From: Cloacibacterium normanense
Lineage (GTDB): Bacteria > Bacteroidota > Bacteroidia > Flavobacteriales > Weeksellaceae
Length of the DNA: 64,000 nucleotides
NCBI RefSeq assembly: GCF_002943105.1
Contig: NZ_PTPZ01000003.1
Coordinates: 1-64,000 of the forward strand
Direction of reading: 5' to 3'
Shown here: positions 12,445 through 17,490 of the stretch, in pieces
How the letters are laid out: each line of letters opens with the position of its first letter
Position numbering within the stretch: position 1 is the first letter of the stretch
The notes under the pieces: generated by a model
What the model saw: only the letters and a program-made list of their open reading frames with translations
The model's database searches: none
Told to the model about the DNA's origin: nothing
Program-made: the position numbers and the translations under genes

Positions 12445-13191
12445 TTAATCAGCACTTCTTTTTGCGCCTCTGGCTAATTGATAAAATACTTCGTCCATGG
12501 TTTTGGCTTGAAAACTTTTTTTCAAATTTTCAGGAGAATCAATTGCTGCAATTTTTCCGTCAACCATGATGGAAACTCGGTTGCAATATTCGGCTTCGTC
12601 CATATAATGCGTAGTGACAAAAATGGTAATTCCTTGTTCTGAAGCATCATAAATTAAGTCCCAAAATTGTCTTCTAGTAATGGGGTCTACACCACCAGTT
12701 GGTTCGTCTAGAAAAACGATTTCGGGCTGATGAAAAATGGCGACTGAAAATGCCAGTTTCTGTTTCCATCCCAATGGAAGTTCAGAAACCATTTTGTTTT
12801 TTTCTTGTTCTAAACCTAATTTCTCAATGAGTTCTTTGCTTTTTTGTTTTATTTCCTTCATGCTTAAACCATAGATTCCGCCAAAGAATTCTAAATTTTC
12901 TAAAATGGATAAGTTTTCATACAAAGAAAACTTTTGACTCATGTAGCCTATGTTTTTTTTGATTTCTTCAGCGTTTTTGTAGACATCAAATCCTGCAACC
13001 ATTGCTTTACCAGAAGTGGGTGTGGAAAGTCCACAAAACATTCGCATTGCGGTGGTTTTTCCAGCGCCATTTGCACCTAGAAATCCGAAAATCTCTCCTT
13101 TTTTTACTTCAAAGGAAATATGGTCTACCGCAGTGAAATCTCCAAATGTTTTAGTGATTTGTTGGGCTTGTATGGCGATTTCTTTATTCAT
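12445..13191 (-). CDS. ABC transporter ATPase, second nucleotide-binding subunit
   Basis: This 248-residue ATPase has Walker A GANGAGKTT (39-47), Walker B IVFLDEPTGGVDP and an intact H-loop histidine in TTHYMDEA. Its signature loop is unusual: LPLGWKQKLA replaces LSGGQ. It overlaps the upstream ATPase gene by 8 nt, so the two are translationally coupled and probably heterodimerise. In E. coli YbhF the two domains are fused into one chain. Here it would supply the canonical Walker/H-loop half of the one fully active ATP site. Confidence 0.92.
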   Translation of the reverse strand: MNKEIAIQAQQITKTFGDFTAVDHISFEVKKGEIFGFLGANGAGKTTAMRMFCGLSTPTSGKAMVAGFDVYKNAEEIKKNIGYMSQKFSLYENLSILENLEFFGGIYGLSMKEIKQKSKELIEKLGLEQEKNKMVSELPLGWKQKLAFSVAIFHQPEIVFLDEPTGGVDPITRRQFWDLIYDASEQGITIFVTTHYMDEAEYCNRVSIMVDGKIAAIDSPENLKKSFQAKTMDEVFYQLARGAKRSAD

Positions 13192-14107
13192 GATTTGAGA
13201 GTAAAAGAATAAAACTATCTTCTATGGTAGCTTCTATTTTGTTGATTTCAATTTTGTTAAATCTTTTTTCTTGTAAAAATTTCTCCAAAGTTTCCTTTTT
13301 AAAATCTTTTTCTTTTTTAATCACCACATGTACAAATTCGCCAAAGGCATAAGTGTTTTTAGTGGTTTCGTATTCTTTGAGGATTTTGATGAGAGCAGGA
13401 ATATTTTCGGTTTTTACTTCGTATAAATCTTCAGGGAAGCTATTGCAAATGTTTTGAGGAGTGTCAATTTTTAAAATTTTCCCGTTTTGCATGAGCGCAA
13501 CTTTGTCACAGAGTGTGGCTTCATCCATGTAAGGAGTGGCTACCACGATGGTGATGCCTTGTTGTTTTAAGCGCTTCAGCATCTCCCAAAATTCTTTTCT
13601 CGAAACAGGGTCTACTCCTGTTGTAGATTCGTCTAGAAATAGTACTTTTGGTTTGTGAATGAGAGCACAAGAAAGCGCTAATTTTTGTTTCATTCCTCCA
13701 GAAAGTTTCCCTGCTTTTCTGTCTTTAAATGGTTCAATCTGCTGATAAATATCTTTGATTAAATCATAATTTTCTTGAATACTTGTATTGAACACACTAG
13801 CGAAAAATTCTAGATTTTCTTCTACAGTTAAATCTTGATACAGAGAAAATTTTCCTGGCATATAACCAAGAATCTTTCGGATTTTTTTGTAGTCTTTAAC
13901 CACATCAAGTCCTTCAATTTCAGCAGAACCAGAATCTGGATGTAGAAGAGTAGTCAGCATTCGGAAAATAGAGGTTTTGCCACTTCCATCGGGACCAATC
14001 AACCCGAAAATTTCTCCATTTTCTACCGAAAAGGAAATATTATCTACCGCCAGAATTTTTTGTTTTTTTTCGCCGTAAGATTTTGATATGTTTTCTACTT
14101 TTATCAT
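13184..14107 (-). CDS. ABC transporter ATPase, first nucleotide-binding subunit (H-loop His missing)
   Basis: This 307-residue ATPase has Walker A GPDGSGKTS (38-46), a canonical signature LSGGMKQKLA and Walker B VLFLDESTTGVDP. The H-loop histidine is replaced: the sequence reads VVATPYMDEA, with proline where its partner has histidine. A C-terminal extension of about 75 residues is present. Overlap with the next ATPase gene and YbhF-like features point to an asymmetric pair in which this subunit's own ATP site is impaired while its signature loop serves the partner. Confidence 0.92.
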   Translation of the reverse strand: MIKVENISKSYGEKKQKILAVDNISFSVENGEIFGLIGPDGSGKTSIFRMLTTLLHPDSGSAEIEGLDVVKDYKKIRKILGYMPGKFSLYQDLTVEENLEFFASVFNTSIQENYDLIKDIYQQIEPFKDRKAGKLSGGMKQKLALSCALIHKPKVLFLDESTTGVDPVSRKEFWEMLKRLKQQGITIVVATPYMDEATLCDKVALMQNGKILKIDTPQNICNSFPEDLYEVKTENIPALIKILKEYETTKNTYAFGEFVHVVIKKEKDFKKETLEKFLQEKRFNKIEINKIEATIEDSFILLLSNHE

Positions 14108-14123
14108 AATAAATGGAAAATTG

Positions 14124-14143
14124 AAAATTGAAAGTTGAAAATT
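14124..14143. repeat. Inverted repeat, right boundary of the four-helix-bundle gene
   Basis: The 20-mer AAAATTGAAAGTTGAAAATT is the exact reverse complement of 14525-14544. It ends 7 nt beyond the stop codon of the four-helix-bundle gene. Confidence 0.85.
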
Positions 14144-14150
14144 TTTTCAT

Positions 14151-14510
14151 TTACCTTCCTAAGCTTTCTTTTGTAGTTTTTACAATTTTCACTAATAGTT
14201 TTATAAGTTCCTTAATGTCAATTTCAAGAGAATCATATTCTTGTTGGTTTAAATATTCGCCTTTATAAAGAAGTAAAAACCAATAATCTGTTTCGTTCGC
14301 TTCTTTTAAAGCAATATTCATTTTATTAAGAAAATCTGCTTTTGATTGGGCATGTTCTGCTTCCCTGATTAGAGCACCTATTGAAGTTCCGCTTCTTAAC
14401 ATTTGTTTAGAAAGAATAAATTCTTTTCTATTTTCAATCAAAGTTTTGTAAACTTTAATAATTCTAATCGAAAATTCAATTGATTTATCAGCTACCAAAT
14501 TATTTTTCAT
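14151..14510 (-). CDS. Four-helix bundle protein (S23/IVP family)
   Basis: This 119-residue helical protein belongs to the family first described from 23S rRNA intervening sequences, which also contains the Avd accessory proteins of diversity-generating retroelements. Family cues are MLRSGTSIGALIREAEHAQSKADFLNKM and the later LKEANETDYWFLLL. No rRNA or retroelement lies nearby. It sits inside an efflux operon between hlyD and the first ATPase, where it has no evident role. It is flanked within 7 and 14 nt by a perfect 20-bp inverted repeat, suggesting insertion as a cassette. Its biochemical function is unknown. Confidence 0.88.
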   Translation of the reverse strand: MKNNLVADKSIEFSIRIIKVYKTLIENRKEFILSKQMLRSGTSIGALIREAEHAQSKADFLNKMNIALKEANETDYWFLLLYKGEYLNQQEYDSLEIDIKELIKLLVKIVKTTKESLGR

Positions 14511-14524
14511 AAGATTTGAATTTC

Positions 14525-14544
14525 AATTTTCAACTTTCAATTTT
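14525..14544. repeat. Inverted repeat, left (5') boundary of the four-helix-bundle gene
   Basis: The 20-mer AATTTTCAACTTTCAATTTT is the exact reverse complement of 14124-14143. It lies 14 nt upstream of the four-helix-bundle start and touches the hlyD stop codon. Confidence 0.85.
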
Positions 14545-15518
14545 TAATTTATTTTCACTTCTCCGTACATTCCAATTTTTAGAAAGCCATCATTTTTAAC
14601 ATGTATTTTGGTAGCGTAAACAAGATTGGCTCTTTCATCTTTGGTTTGAATGGTTTTGGGAGTGAATTCAGATTTTTGTGAAATCCAGTAGATTTTTCCG
14701 TTCATTTCTTTGGTTTCGCCATTTCCTGCGTCAACTAAAATTTTTACATTTTGTCCGACTTTTACTTTTGCCAATTGGTCTCCTGTAATGTAAGCTCTGA
14801 GAGTCATTTCATCTAAATTTGCCATTTTATAAATTGGTTTTCCAATGGTGGCAAACTCGCCTTTATTCATGTATTTGGTAAGTACAATTCCTTTAATGGG
14901 CGAAGAAATAACATTATGTTTCAATTGTTCATCTATTTGTAGAACTTTCTTCTCGGTAGGATTTTTTTCACTTAAAATAGCTCTATTTTGAATTTTTACT
15001 TGTTCTAAAGTAGAAGAAATCTGTTGTTTTAAAATTTCTGATTGTGATTTTGCAGTTGCTATTTGTTTTTGAATCACCACAACATTTCCGTTTAAATCAT
15101 CTAATTGCTTGTGCGTTGCAGCATCTAATTTTACGAGATTTGCGGTTCTGTTTCTTTCTCTCACTGCATTGTTTAATTGTTCATTCAGCACAGCAATTTG
15201 AGCATTTTGTGTAGCCAACTGAGATTGCAGAACTGCAATTTGAGGTGCTGCATCATTGGTTTTTTGTTCGATGGCATTGATAGAAGCCAAAACCTGTTCT
15301 TTTTGTAATTCTACGCCTTTTCCGTCGATTAAACCTAAGTTTTGATTGGCTGTTAATGCATCTCCTTCATTGAGATTGAGTTCAAGGATTTTTCCTGTAG
15401 CTTCCGCCGTAACGATGATTTCATCTGCTTCGAAAGTTCCAGAAGCATCATAATCTTGGTCTGCTCTTTTGCAAGAGAAAATGGTCAAAACTAGGAGAGG
15501 AAGAATATATTTTTTCAT
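14544..15518 (-). CDS. HlyD-family periplasmic adaptor lipoprotein
   Basis: This 324-residue membrane fusion protein would bridge the ABC transporter and the TolC-type channel. The N-terminus is a lipoprotein signal with lipobox IFSC (Cys at about 16). It has a biotinyl-lipoyl-like half-motif (LELNLNEGDALTANQ), a long alpha-helical hairpin (about 65-190), and the second half ISSPIKGIVLTKYMNKGEF. It resembles YbhG. The gene order tolC-hlyD-ATPases-permeases supports a tripartite efflux pump. Confidence 0.9.
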   Translation of the reverse strand: MKKYILPLLVLTIFSCKRADQDYDASGTFEADEIIVTAEATGKILELNLNEGDALTANQNLGLIDGKGVELQKEQVLASINAIEQKTNDAAPQIAVLQSQLATQNAQIAVLNEQLNNAVRERNRTANLVKLDAATHKQLDDLNGNVVVIQKQIATAKSQSEILKQQISSTLEQVKIQNRAILSEKNPTEKKVLQIDEQLKHNVISSPIKGIVLTKYMNKGEFATIGKPIYKMANLDEMTLRAYITGDQLAKVKVGQNVKILVDAGNGETKEMNGKIYWISQKSEFTPKTIQTKDERANLVYATKIHVKNDGFLKIGMYGEVKIN

Positions 15519-15584: not shown

Positions 15585-16835
15585 TCAATTATTTAGTTGA
15601 GCTTTCAAATTATATTGTGTCAATAAATATTGAATTTCGTGGGTAATTTTTGTGAGAATTGCTTGTTCTTCGGCGGTTACTTCTCGCAGATAATCATTAG
15701 TATTGATAACGCCATTTTCTAATTGGGCAAGACTTGCTGTTTTGATGTTTTTTCTTAGTTCAATCAGTTCATTGTCTTTGTCGATTAAATTTTGAATCTT
15801 TTCAAGGTCATTTCTTTGTTGGATTTCAATAAAATTTTGGTTAAACAAGAAGTTTTCTCTTTGGATTTCGATTTCTTGTGACTGATTTTCTAACAAAGCC
15901 AAATCGTTTTTCTGAGTGTAAAATCCAGAAATCGGGATATTAAGTCTAATTCCGCCAATATAGAAAATGTCAAACTCATTTTTCAGCATATTGAAGCCCG
16001 GTTTTCCGTAACCACCTTGGAAAAAAGCTCCTAATTTTGGAATGTTTTTAGTGTTGATGATTTTTCTTTGCGTTTCTAGAAGTTGTTTCTGTGCATCAAA
16101 AATTTTTAGTTCTGAGCGATTATTATTCTTCGTTAATAGAATTTTTTCAGGAGTTTCAAGCTGAGTATTTTCGTCGATATTTTTCTTGATGAAGTAAGAA
16201 AGCATTTGCACGAAATTTTGCTTTATGGCTTGAAGTTCAATTTCTTTTTGTTCAATTTTTACCAATTCTGCTTTTAAAACATCTAAATTACTTCTGAAAA
16301 TAACCCCATTTTTCAATTGAGCTTCTGCTTTTTTGATACCTTCTTTGATGTCGAGCTTTGTGAATTGCAGTTGAGTCCATTGTTTATTGGTTTGAAGAAT
16401 CCCAAAATAGAGTTGATTAATTCGCTCTTTCAATTTATCTAATTCCACTTCAGTTTGTATGGTTTGAACTTCTGACTGGATTTTTGCTAAATTTTTCTGA
16501 TTTCTAATGTTTCCGCCATCGTAAATGGTTTGAGAAACGTCTGCAAATATTTTGTATTGGTCTTTGCTGAGTGGTTCTACATTCATGTTTGGCAATTTCA
16601 CGGGAAATTGAGTCACATCATTTTGGTAAGTAGCTTGCGCAGTAATATTGACTTGAGGAAGCCAGCCTTTCAGTGCATTTTCTGTAGTGTATTGCTCTGC
16701 TTTTTTAATCAATTCTTTTTTTTTGATTAAAGGATAATTTTCTCGTGACCATTGGTAACATTGTTCAAGGGTAACGGTTTCTTGTGCATTGATGAGCCCT
16801 ATGAATAAGAGGAAAATGTATTTAAGTTTTTCCAT
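15585..16835 (-). CDS. TolC-family outer membrane efflux protein
   Basis: This 416-residue outer membrane factor begins with a signal peptide ending at INAQ (about residue 17). The first structural repeat starts at TLEQCYQWSRENYPLIKK, and long heptad-like helices follow, as in TolC periplasmic tunnels. It starts 4 nt after the tetR stop codon, so regulator and channel are co-transcribed. It would form the exit duct for the efflux pump encoded downstream. Confidence 0.9.
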   Translation of the reverse strand: MEKLKYIFLLFIGLINAQETVTLEQCYQWSRENYPLIKKKELIKKAEQYTTENALKGWLPQVNITAQATYQNDVTQFPVKLPNMNVEPLSKDQYKIFADVSQTIYDGGNIRNQKNLAKIQSEVQTIQTEVELDKLKERINQLYFGILQTNKQWTQLQFTKLDIKEGIKKAEAQLKNGVIFRSNLDVLKAELVKIEQKEIELQAIKQNFVQMLSYFIKKNIDENTQLETPEKILLTKNNNRSELKIFDAQKQLLETQRKIINTKNIPKLGAFFQGGYGKPGFNMLKNEFDIFYIGGIRLNIPISGFYTQKNDLALLENQSQEIEIQRENFLFNQNFIEIQQRNDLEKIQNLIDKDNELIELRKNIKTASLAQLENGVINTNDYLREVTAEEQAILTKITHEIQYLLTQYNLKAQLNN

Positions 16836-16839
16836 CGTT

Positions 16840-17469
16840 TTAAAGATTTTCAGTTTTTATTTCTAAAAGTTGTTTCATCCAGATTGGAACGAGTTTTCTT
16901 CTTTCGCTAATGAATTGGTGGTATTCATCTTCATTAGTCAGTTCAAAAGCGTTAAAAACGGGTTTTGCTACAAAAGGAAAAATAGTCATCGCTAAGAAAT
17001 TGACTAAATAATGCAATGGATTGATTTCTGGTCTTTTTTCTTTGATTTGTTTGATGATGACAGAATTTTCAAAAATTTTATTTACAGGAATAATTTTCGT
17101 GATGTTAGAATTTTTTTTCTGAATTTCACTGATTACAAAAAGAGGAAGATTAGGATTTTTAGATAAAATTTCGAAATATTTTTCTGAAGCTAAGTCTATT
17201 TTTTCTTCTAAAGATGTTTTCTCGTTGCTTAAAATAGGGAAAATCTTCCCGAAGAGTAGCACAACTTTTATCTTCATCACTTGTTCAAAAAGTTTTTCTT
17301 TACTTCGGAAATAGTAATTAAGTAGCGCCAGATTTATTCCTGCTTTTTCGGCAATATCTCTGGTTCTGGTTCCTGCAAATCCTTTTTCGGTAAAGACTTC
17401 TGAAGCTGCTTCTAAAATTTTTTCTTCAGTGGTTTGTTCTTGTTCATTCATCTGTTTTTCACATTTCAT
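16840..17469 (-). CDS. TetR/AcrR-family repressor of the efflux operon
   Basis: The N-terminal helix-turn-helix is clear: EKILEAASEVF, then GTRTRDIAEKAGINLALLNYYFRSKEKLF. The C-terminal ligand domain is divergent. It is the first gene of the efflux operon and lies directly below a 30-bp palindrome, so it probably represses its own transcript. The longest open frame starts with TTG at 17484, but that lies upstream of and overlapping the promoter box. The ATG at 17469 begins 4 nt after the box, and a further ATG at 17451 is also possible. I used 17469, giving 209 residues. Confidence 0.9.
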   Translation of the reverse strand: MKCEKQMNEQEQTTEEKILEAASEVFTEKGFAGTRTRDIAEKAGINLALLNYYFRSKEKLFEQVMKIKVVLLFGKIFPILSNEKTSLEEKIDLASEKYFEILSKNPNLPLFVISEIQKKNSNITKIIPVNKIFENSVIIKQIKEKRPEINPLHYLVNFLAMTIFPFVAKPVFNAFELTNEDEYHQFISERRKLVPIWMKQLLEIKTENL

Positions 17470-17473
17470 AAAA

Positions 17474-17481
17474 CAAATGTA
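17474..17481 (-). promoter_or_regulatory. Promoter -7 box of the efflux operon
   Basis: On the minus strand TACATTTG fits TAnnTTTG and ends 4 nt before the ATG at 17469. The adjacent palindrome at 17491-17520 covers the -33 region. Confidence 0.65.
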
Positions 17482-17490
17482 CAATTAAAT

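Follow-up and report, generated by a model that had tools for sequence, protein, structure and literature searches.

Two adjacent ABC ATPase genes of Cloacibacterium normanense encode nucleotide-binding domains (NBDs) whose ATP-site motifs depart from consensus at different positions. This raises the question of whether the two proteins would pair to form one canonical and one altered ATP site and, if so, whether such an asymmetry is maintained or instead marks a gene in decay. We addressed this question in a 64,000-nucleotide stretch of the genome (positions 1 to 64,000 of contig NZ_PTPZ01000003.1; hereafter, the window). Most work on degenerate ATP sites has dealt with eukaryotic ABCB, ABCC, and ABCG transporters and with a few bacterial type I exporters. 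The reading that we favor, with a probability of about 0.75, is that the two ATPases, ABC1 and ABC2, would join as a heterodimer to power a tripartite ABC-2 exporter with a split YbhF, with one site hydrolyzing ATP and the other holding it.

Gene Organization and Relationship to YbhF

ABC1 (NBD1) and ABC2 (NBD2) are encoded by two minus-strand open reading frames that overlap by 8 nt, with ABC1 upstream (Table 1). ABC1 aligns with the N-terminal half of Escherichia coli YbhF (39% identity over 292 columns) and carries a C-terminal extension of ~80 aa, and ABC2 aligns with the C-terminal half (49% identity over 241 columns). The reference gene, ybhF (NC_000913, 827245-828981), belongs to the YbhFSR-YbhG-CecR tripartite exporter. 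As in E. coli, an adaptor and two ABC-2 permeases accompany the ATPases in the same order. The E. coli stretch has no TolC gene, whereas the row in the window includes a TolC-like gene.

Two lines of evidence place the pair in the YbhF-type dual ATPase group: the matching halves together with separate NBD1 and NBD2 clades (SH-aLRT 99 and 89; see below), and a gene row with an HlyD-like adaptor and two different ABC-2 permeases, which are 31% identical to each other. The pair differs from a single fused YbhF-like chain in that its NBDs lie on two open reading frames. Scores against three NCBIfam models stayed below the respective cut-offs, namely the RbbA equivalog (NF033858; 231.8 for ABC1 and 306.5 for ABC2, cut-off 1050), YbhG (PRK03598; 105.3 for the adaptor, cut-off 393), and CecR (PRK11552; 33.4 for the regulator, cut-off 365). 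Judged by its sequence, the gene row encodes a tripartite exporter resembling YbhFSR, in which YbhF is divided between two genes.

Table 1. Genes of the putative exporter row and ATP-site motifs of ABC1 and ABC2, in window positions.
Feature	Position	Strand	Basis or assignment
TetR-family regulator	16840..17484	-	PF00440
TolC-family outer-membrane protein	15585..16835	-	TIGR01844, E 8e-12, under family cut-off
HlyD-family periplasmic adaptor, YbhG-like	14544..15518	-	profile matches
Small four-helix-bundle gene	14151..14510	-	between HlyD-like adaptor and ABC1
ABC1 (NBD1, N-half-of-YbhF type ATPase), 307 aa	13184..14107	-	ORF; PF00005; YbhF N-half alignment
ABC1 Walker A GPDGSGKTS, residues 38-46	13970..13996	-	site 1; position 3 Asn to Asp, Lys kept
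ABC1 Q-loop position Gly85	13853..13855	-	site 1; Gln lost
ABC1 signature LSGGM, residues 135-139	13691..13705	-	site 2, canonical
ABC1 Walker B Asp159-Glu160, with Ser161	13625..13633	-	site 1; catalytic Glu kept
ABC1 H-loop position Pro192	13532..13534	-	site 1; His lost
ABC2 (NBD2, C-half-of-YbhF type ATPase), 248 aa	12445..13191	-	ORF; PF00005; YbhF C-half alignment
ABC2 Walker A GANGAGKTT, residues 39-47	13051..13077	-	site 2
ABC2 Q-loop Gln86	12934..12936	-	site 2
ABC2 signature LPLGW, residues 138-142	12766..12780	-	site 1; Ser to Pro
ABC2 Walker B Asp162-Glu163	within 12700..12708	-	site 2
ABC2 H-loop His195	12607..12609	-	site 2, canonical
ABC-2 permease, YbhS/YbhR-like, 368 aa	11210..12316	-	PF12698
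Second ABC-2 permease, 373 aa	9868..10989	-	PF12698

Predicted Composite ATP Sites of ABC1 and ABC2

As described in excerpts of two papers, a composite ATP site combines the Walker A and B motifs, Q-loop, and H-loop of one NBD with the signature of the other (PMC7756269, PMC7544095). Site 1 would accordingly comprise the Walker A/B, Q-loop, and H-loop of ABC1 and the signature of ABC2, and site 2 the same four elements of ABC2 and the signature of ABC1. The earlier note had described ABC1 as having a normal LSGGM signature and Pro in place of the H-loop His, and the sequence bears out both, at the nucleotide positions given in Table 1. It had described ABC2 as having an intact H-loop His, which holds, and a deviant LPLGW signature, which is deviant through its Pro and not through its Leu, since position 3 commonly varies. 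Beyond these, ABC1 also departs from consensus in Walker A (Asn to Asp) and in the Q-loop (Gln to Gly). Because composite sites mix motifs of both NBDs, every deviation of ABC1 and ABC2 belongs to site 1, leaving site 2 intact.

Both ABC1 and ABC2 have the Walker A Lys and the catalytic Glu. Site 1, which we infer from the motifs to be defective, retains these two residues. Supply of the missing His from a neighboring position, which was raised as a potential objection, is not borne out by the sequence: the only histidines of ABC1 are at positions 56, 151, 260, and 306, and none adjoins position 192. Alignment with the two halves of YbhF, suggested earlier as a check, returned the same layout, with an NBD1 that lacks His and an NBD2 with LPLGF. 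The residue after the catalytic Glu of ABC1 is Ser161 (DES; 13625-13627, site 1), where the other 189 of 190 pairs surveyed below have Pro.

Comparison of the pair with other ABC domains of its own genome (21 stretches plus ABC1/ABC2, amounting to 26 of 36 ABC_tran matches with the 10 weakest left out) showed that, of the domains whose H-loop was fully aligned, ABC1 alone lacks the His, with the ABC-F type uncounted; alignments of L004, L279, L277, and part of L272 and L278 ended before or within the H-loop. ABC2 was the only transporter-type domain in which signature position 2 was changed (Ser to Pro). Deviations at signature position 3 were common (LSKGY, LSKGM, LSKGN, ISLGQ, and LSDGN), indicating that the Leu of LPLGW alone is no defect but that the Pro is. 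One of the other domains, an ABC exporter (L004, 370-2103), has the Walker B sequence IFDDSL, in which Asp replaces the catalytic Glu; this exporter, too, may be asymmetric or slow.

Distribution of the Asymmetry in the YbhF/RbbA-Like Group

Homologous pairs were compiled from six sources: (i) genomes related to that of the window (16 of 40 matched); (ii) genomes of the same phylum searched with an NBD1 profile (159 of 296 matched; 30 loci and 20 hand-chosen regions read); (iii) short peptide patterns, including LSGGM or a GxDG Walker A (the best 80 of 575 confirmed stretches); (iv) genomes searched with an NBD2 profile (85 of 148 matched; 30 loci and 40 hand-chosen regions read, some of the latter being single-ATPase outgroups); (v) plasmid records matching E. 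coli YbhF (19 regions taken from 229 records, 60 of them listed); and (vi) E. coli K-12. Removal of 37 duplicates and 7 pairs with incomplete motifs left 190 non-redundant NBD1/NBD2 pairs; none was dropped for gene order. Records of the family span five named phyla (Bacteroidota, Pseudomonadota, Bacillota, Cyanobacteriota, and Gemmatimonadota). Whole-genome sampling centered on a Desulfobulbaceae locus (L111) returned a Bacteroidota-like set again, with the same contig places recurring, and the cross-phylum evidence therefore comes from the plasmid records and E. coli. A DNA-level search of E. coli genomes with ABC2 gave no match at the sensitivity used.

Every scored element of site 2 was invariant: the Walker A Asn and Lys, the Q-loop Gln, the Walker B Asp-Glu, and the H-loop His of NBD2, as well as the LSGGM of NBD1, were each found in 190/190 pairs. 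Site 1 differed throughout. The NBD1 H-loop position was occupied by Pro (166), Ala (18), or Ser (6) and never by His, and Walker A position 3 was Asp in 190/190 NBD1s and Asn in 190/190 NBD2s. The NBD1 Q-loop position was Gly in 128 pairs, Gln in 59, and Glu in 3, such that Gln was lost in 131/190, and NBD2 signature position 2 was Pro in 178 and Ser in 12. Other site 1 residues were retained, including the NBD1 Walker A Lys (190/190) and the NBD1 Walker B (Asp-Glu in 189, Asp-Asp in 1). Five pairs had a motif gap (L101, L207, L211, L231, and L261), and the NBD1 H-loop His was absent in all five; NBD2 of L211 has a change at signature position 4 (LSGAV), and its H-loop is out of view.

Because some loci had been picked by the LSGGM or GxDG patterns themselves, we recounted without the 77 pattern-picked pairs, and all invariants held (113/113). 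Likewise, NBD1 lacked His in 42/42 pairs from the NBD2-profile lists and had LSGGM in 42/42. The sample is mostly from Bacteroidota, the NBD1 seeds were all His-less, and the matching genomes were read in part, so NBD1 orthologs that bear His could have been missed. Within the sampled YbhF/RbbA-like group, these sequences indicate that the asymmetry recurs throughout and is not special to the genome of the window. The earlier prediction that one composite site is canonical and the other degenerate is thereby upheld at the level of sequence, with site 2 canonical in 190/190 pairs and the deviations in site 1.

These counts also bear on whether ABC1 and ABC2 would pair at all. That the two act as separate homodimers with no mixed site is compatible with their separate genes and with the gene of ~440 aa that lies between the NBDs in one Bacteroidota group. 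However, the NBDs are fused in one chain in 19/190 pairs, including YbhF and RbbA, the operon encodes two different permeases, and homodimers of ABC2 would have two LPLGW sites and those of ABC1 two His-less sites, all of which makes separate homodimers unlikely.

Among the sampled loci, a second Bacteroidota branch (L226-L255, 29 pairs) has NBD1 and NBD2 1.5-2.1 kb apart. In the two of these loci that were inspected, L226 and L234, a TolC-like frame of ~440 aa lies between NBD1 and NBD2, and NBD2 is extended at its C terminus relative to ABC2. In addition, a contig from a viral collection (L266, 1-1563) starts inside a fused ybhF-like gene whose frame leaves the family right after SGVDP, ahead of the second H-loop, as if an element had inserted after SGVDP.

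Probable Maintenance of the Altered Site

The earlier note took the location of two defects in the same composite site as an argument for co-evolution. That argument does not hold for one pair, since two random defects share a site half of the time; the asymmetry is settled by the family counts. Covariation of the two defects was also considered as evidence and set aside, since the His loss is fixed in all pairs and leaves nothing to covary.

Within a Bacteroidota clade of 131 pairs, the H-loop position is Pro in 127 and the NBD2 signature is LPLGW in 119. All four Pro codons are used at this H-loop position (61/27/20/19), and CCT and CCC, which are one base from His codons, together account for 88/131; His never appears. 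The spread of Pro codons without a return to His, together with the invariance of the part of site 2 that NBD1 contributes, suggests selection to keep site 1 different. Conservation by itself was rejected as a weak argument, with the spread of synonymous codons being the better one: median column conservation is 0.88 in NBD1 and 0.85 in NBD2, and because the NBDs are conserved overall, the deviant residues rank only mid-to-upper (60th to 77th percentile), with Pro192 at the 64th percentile, above the column median but not extreme.

If NBD1 were decaying, its function would be fading because NBD2 suffices, and several NBD1 motifs are indeed non-canonical. Yet the signature LSGGM and the Walker A Lys of NBD1 are invariant and its catalytic Glu is nearly so, Pro192 is conserved over a wide spread of synonymous codons, and mean pairwise identity in the Bacteroidota clade is 0.69 for NBD1 versus 0.68 for NBD2. 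A decaying NBD1 should also lose its signature, and a decaying NBD2 its H-loop, Q-loop, or Glu, each of which is retained in 190/190 pairs. We therefore give decay of NBD1 very little weight. Related pumps, two of them in E. coli, keep one site intact and the other changed, and on this sequence evidence the asymmetry looks like an old, maintained design rather than a broken gene.

Probable Order of the Losses

A quick tree of 47 representative pairs and 13 single-ATPase outgroup rows, in which the deep forks are weak, recovered NBD1s as one clade (SH-aLRT 99) and NBD2s as another (89), with similar internal splits. This suggests that the pair predates the split of the lineages seen, although the deep forks are not firm. 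The outgroup ATPases retain an intact SGG in 12/13 and the H-loop His in 13/13, and the direction of change would accordingly be loss rather than gain.

In a second quick tree of 154 pairs with the motif columns removed, the NBD2 signature changed at least six times at position 2 and at least seven times at position 3, and the NBD1 H-loop letter changed at least eight times among Pro, Ala, and Ser; loss of the Q-loop Gln required one change. The site 2 positions that match the changed site 1 positions had zero variation in the 190 pairs, and all changes were on the site 1 side. Loss of the Q-loop Gln occurred only together with loss of the signature Ser (131/131). Conversely, 10/190 pairs combine an H-loop Pro in NBD1 with an intact SGG signature in NBD2, and in these the deviations are confined to the H-loop His and the Walker A Asn. 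A Firmicutes plasmid pair (L207) has the same combination but was uncounted, its NBD1 being split over two open frames. These pairs indicate that the H-loop and signature defects did not need each other.

The most likely order begins with loss of the H-loop His, which all members seen share, followed by repeated loss of the NBD2 signature Ser; the Q-loop Gln would have been lost last, once, in the Bacteroidota split-gene clade. The nesting of the losses (H-loop, signature, Q-loop) argues that they are old and sequential and not a co-evolution special to ABC1 and ABC2. The pattern thus reads, from these alignments, as a ratchet on one site and not as a joint change of two residues. Of the earlier proposal of a co-evolved asymmetry rather than decay, maintenance survives, and co-evolution gives way to one-sided, sequential loss.

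Comparison With Known Systems and Predicted Mechanism

Two E. coli proteins share the layout. YbhF has an NBD1 with LSGGM and without an H-loop His (STSYLDEA) and an NBD2 with LPLGF and TTHFMDEA; it differs from ABC1 and ABC2 in being a fused chain, in keeping the NBD1 Q-loop Gln (PQK), and in having Ser rather than Pro in the H-loop. RbbA, a ribosome-associated ATPase and putative transporter, likewise pairs LSGGM and ATAYMEEA in NBD1 with LPLGI and STHFMNEA in NBD2, but has its permease part on the same chain. Among solved structures, the best matches for both ABC1 and ABC2 were ABCA1, ABCA3, ABCA4, and ABCA7, and the NBDs of ABCA1 and ABCA3 that were inspected differ in that they keep the H-loop His and Ser-Gly-Gly. 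A PDB search with E. coli YbhF returned 13 sequences with E values of 1e-60 or lower, each of them an ABCA protein, and no YbhF or RbbA appeared by name among the best 60 PDB matches each for ABC1 and ABC2. Where the open text of Feng et al. (PMC7190983) and of a paper on Aliarcobacter (PMC9951867) treats YbhF, the motifs are given as present and an asymmetry goes unmentioned; the word 'degenerate' is absent from both main texts. We found no description of site asymmetry in the YbhF/RbbA family in the open literature, including the accessible part of PMC8277102; most subscription journals lie outside this scope.

Similar arrangements are described in other transporter classes. In Pdr5 and other asymmetric PDR transporters, the portions of the literature cited here place the deviant motifs all in one composite site, with the H-loop His of Pdr5 replaced by Tyr and a partner signature of LNVEQ (PMC7756269, PMC8421411). 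In contrast to ABC1, which keeps both, Pdr5 is also missing the Walker A Lys and the catalytic Glu. PatAB also has a deviant H-loop and partner signature in one site, according to the text available (PMC9541285), but PatA has Asp for the catalytic Glu, which ABC1 keeps, and in transporters of the PatAB and TM287/288 type, which are of another class, each ATPase chain carries a membrane domain. The pair resembles asymmetric transporters in that its non-canonical residues are confined to one composite site (the scored site 2 residues being canonical in 190/190). However, an excerpt of PMC7544095 treats absence of the catalytic Glu as a hallmark of the degenerate site, and this absence is not seen: Glu160 is present in ABC1 and Glu in 189/190 NBD1s. 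ABCG5/G8 is described as differing in pattern in the cited part of PMC7756269. Given the retained Glu, site 1 may act like the degenerate-site class without being a textbook member of it.

The ABC1 and ABC2 chains would pair head to tail, with site 2 predicted to hydrolyze ATP and drive the cycle. Site 1 would bind Mg-ATP and retain it over many cycles, serving as a hinge or clamp, in keeping with proposals for TM287/288, Pdr5, and ABCC1. Loss of the Q-loop Gln would weaken contact with the gamma-phosphate and signaling from NBD1 to the permease, on that side only. The division into a hydrolyzing site 2 and a holding site 1 is drawn by analogy with asymmetric transporters, in which the degenerate site keeps ATP bound according to excerpts of two papers (PMC7756269; for Pdr5, PMC8421411), and with PatAB.

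Because the catalytic Glu is kept in 189/190 NBD1s, slow turnover in site 1 is possible. Site 1 might even be a working, perhaps slow, ATPase in which the Glu is the general base and the His, Gln, and Ser losses are tolerated, such that both sites fire. Retention of the Walker A Lys (190/190) and Walker B Asp-Glu (189/190) of NBD1, and of the NBD2 SGG in 10/190 pairs, would fit such a motor. Nevertheless, four types of non-canonical position occur in site 1 and none among the scored site 2 positions, and hydrolysis by PatAB requires the consensus H-loop His, as reported in the portion of PMC9541285 cited here; we consider a working site 1 unlikely. A broader and tentative proposal, which we rate at somewhat under even odds, is that the group carries an ancient and unusual degenerate site (Glu kept, H-loop His excluded) that was built stepwise and one-sidedly through the H-loop, the partner signature, and, among Bacteroidota, the Q-loop connecting NBD1 with its permease. 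The motor would then have a single stroke, and its second ATP would serve as a structural clamp.

This group of bacterial ABC-2 exporters, to which two E. coli K-12 proteins belong, has the same one-sided layout as the asymmetric transporters and uncouples loss of the His from loss of the Glu. The natural signature intermediates within this one family (LSGG, LPGG, LPTG, and LPLG) make the order in which an ATP site is silenced, and what a silent site serves, testable.

A Four-Helix-Bundle Gene With Flanking Repeats

The small gene between the adaptor and ABC1 belongs to the 23S-rRNA-IVP/four-helix-bundle family, which has seven matches in the genome. It is flanked by a 26-nt inverted repeat (14118-14143 and 14525-14550; 96% complementary) composed, by eye, of 7-nt units (ATTGAAA), the right arm of which enters the end of the HlyD gene. 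Flanking inverted repeats of three copies, L281, L285 (the copy in the window), and L286, score 19-23, and by eye the 7-nt unit differs among the three; scores of the other copies are 12-13 (L280, L282, and L284) and 9 (L283). Among 150 random slots in the window, 5 scored at least 12 and 1 at least 18, the latter possibly being the place of the gene itself. The gene and its repeats resemble a small cassette whose heptamer ends are specific to each copy. A second Bacteroidota efflux operon (L234) has a frame that, by eye, resembles a four-helix bundle (2614-2898) between its TolC-like frame and NBD2.
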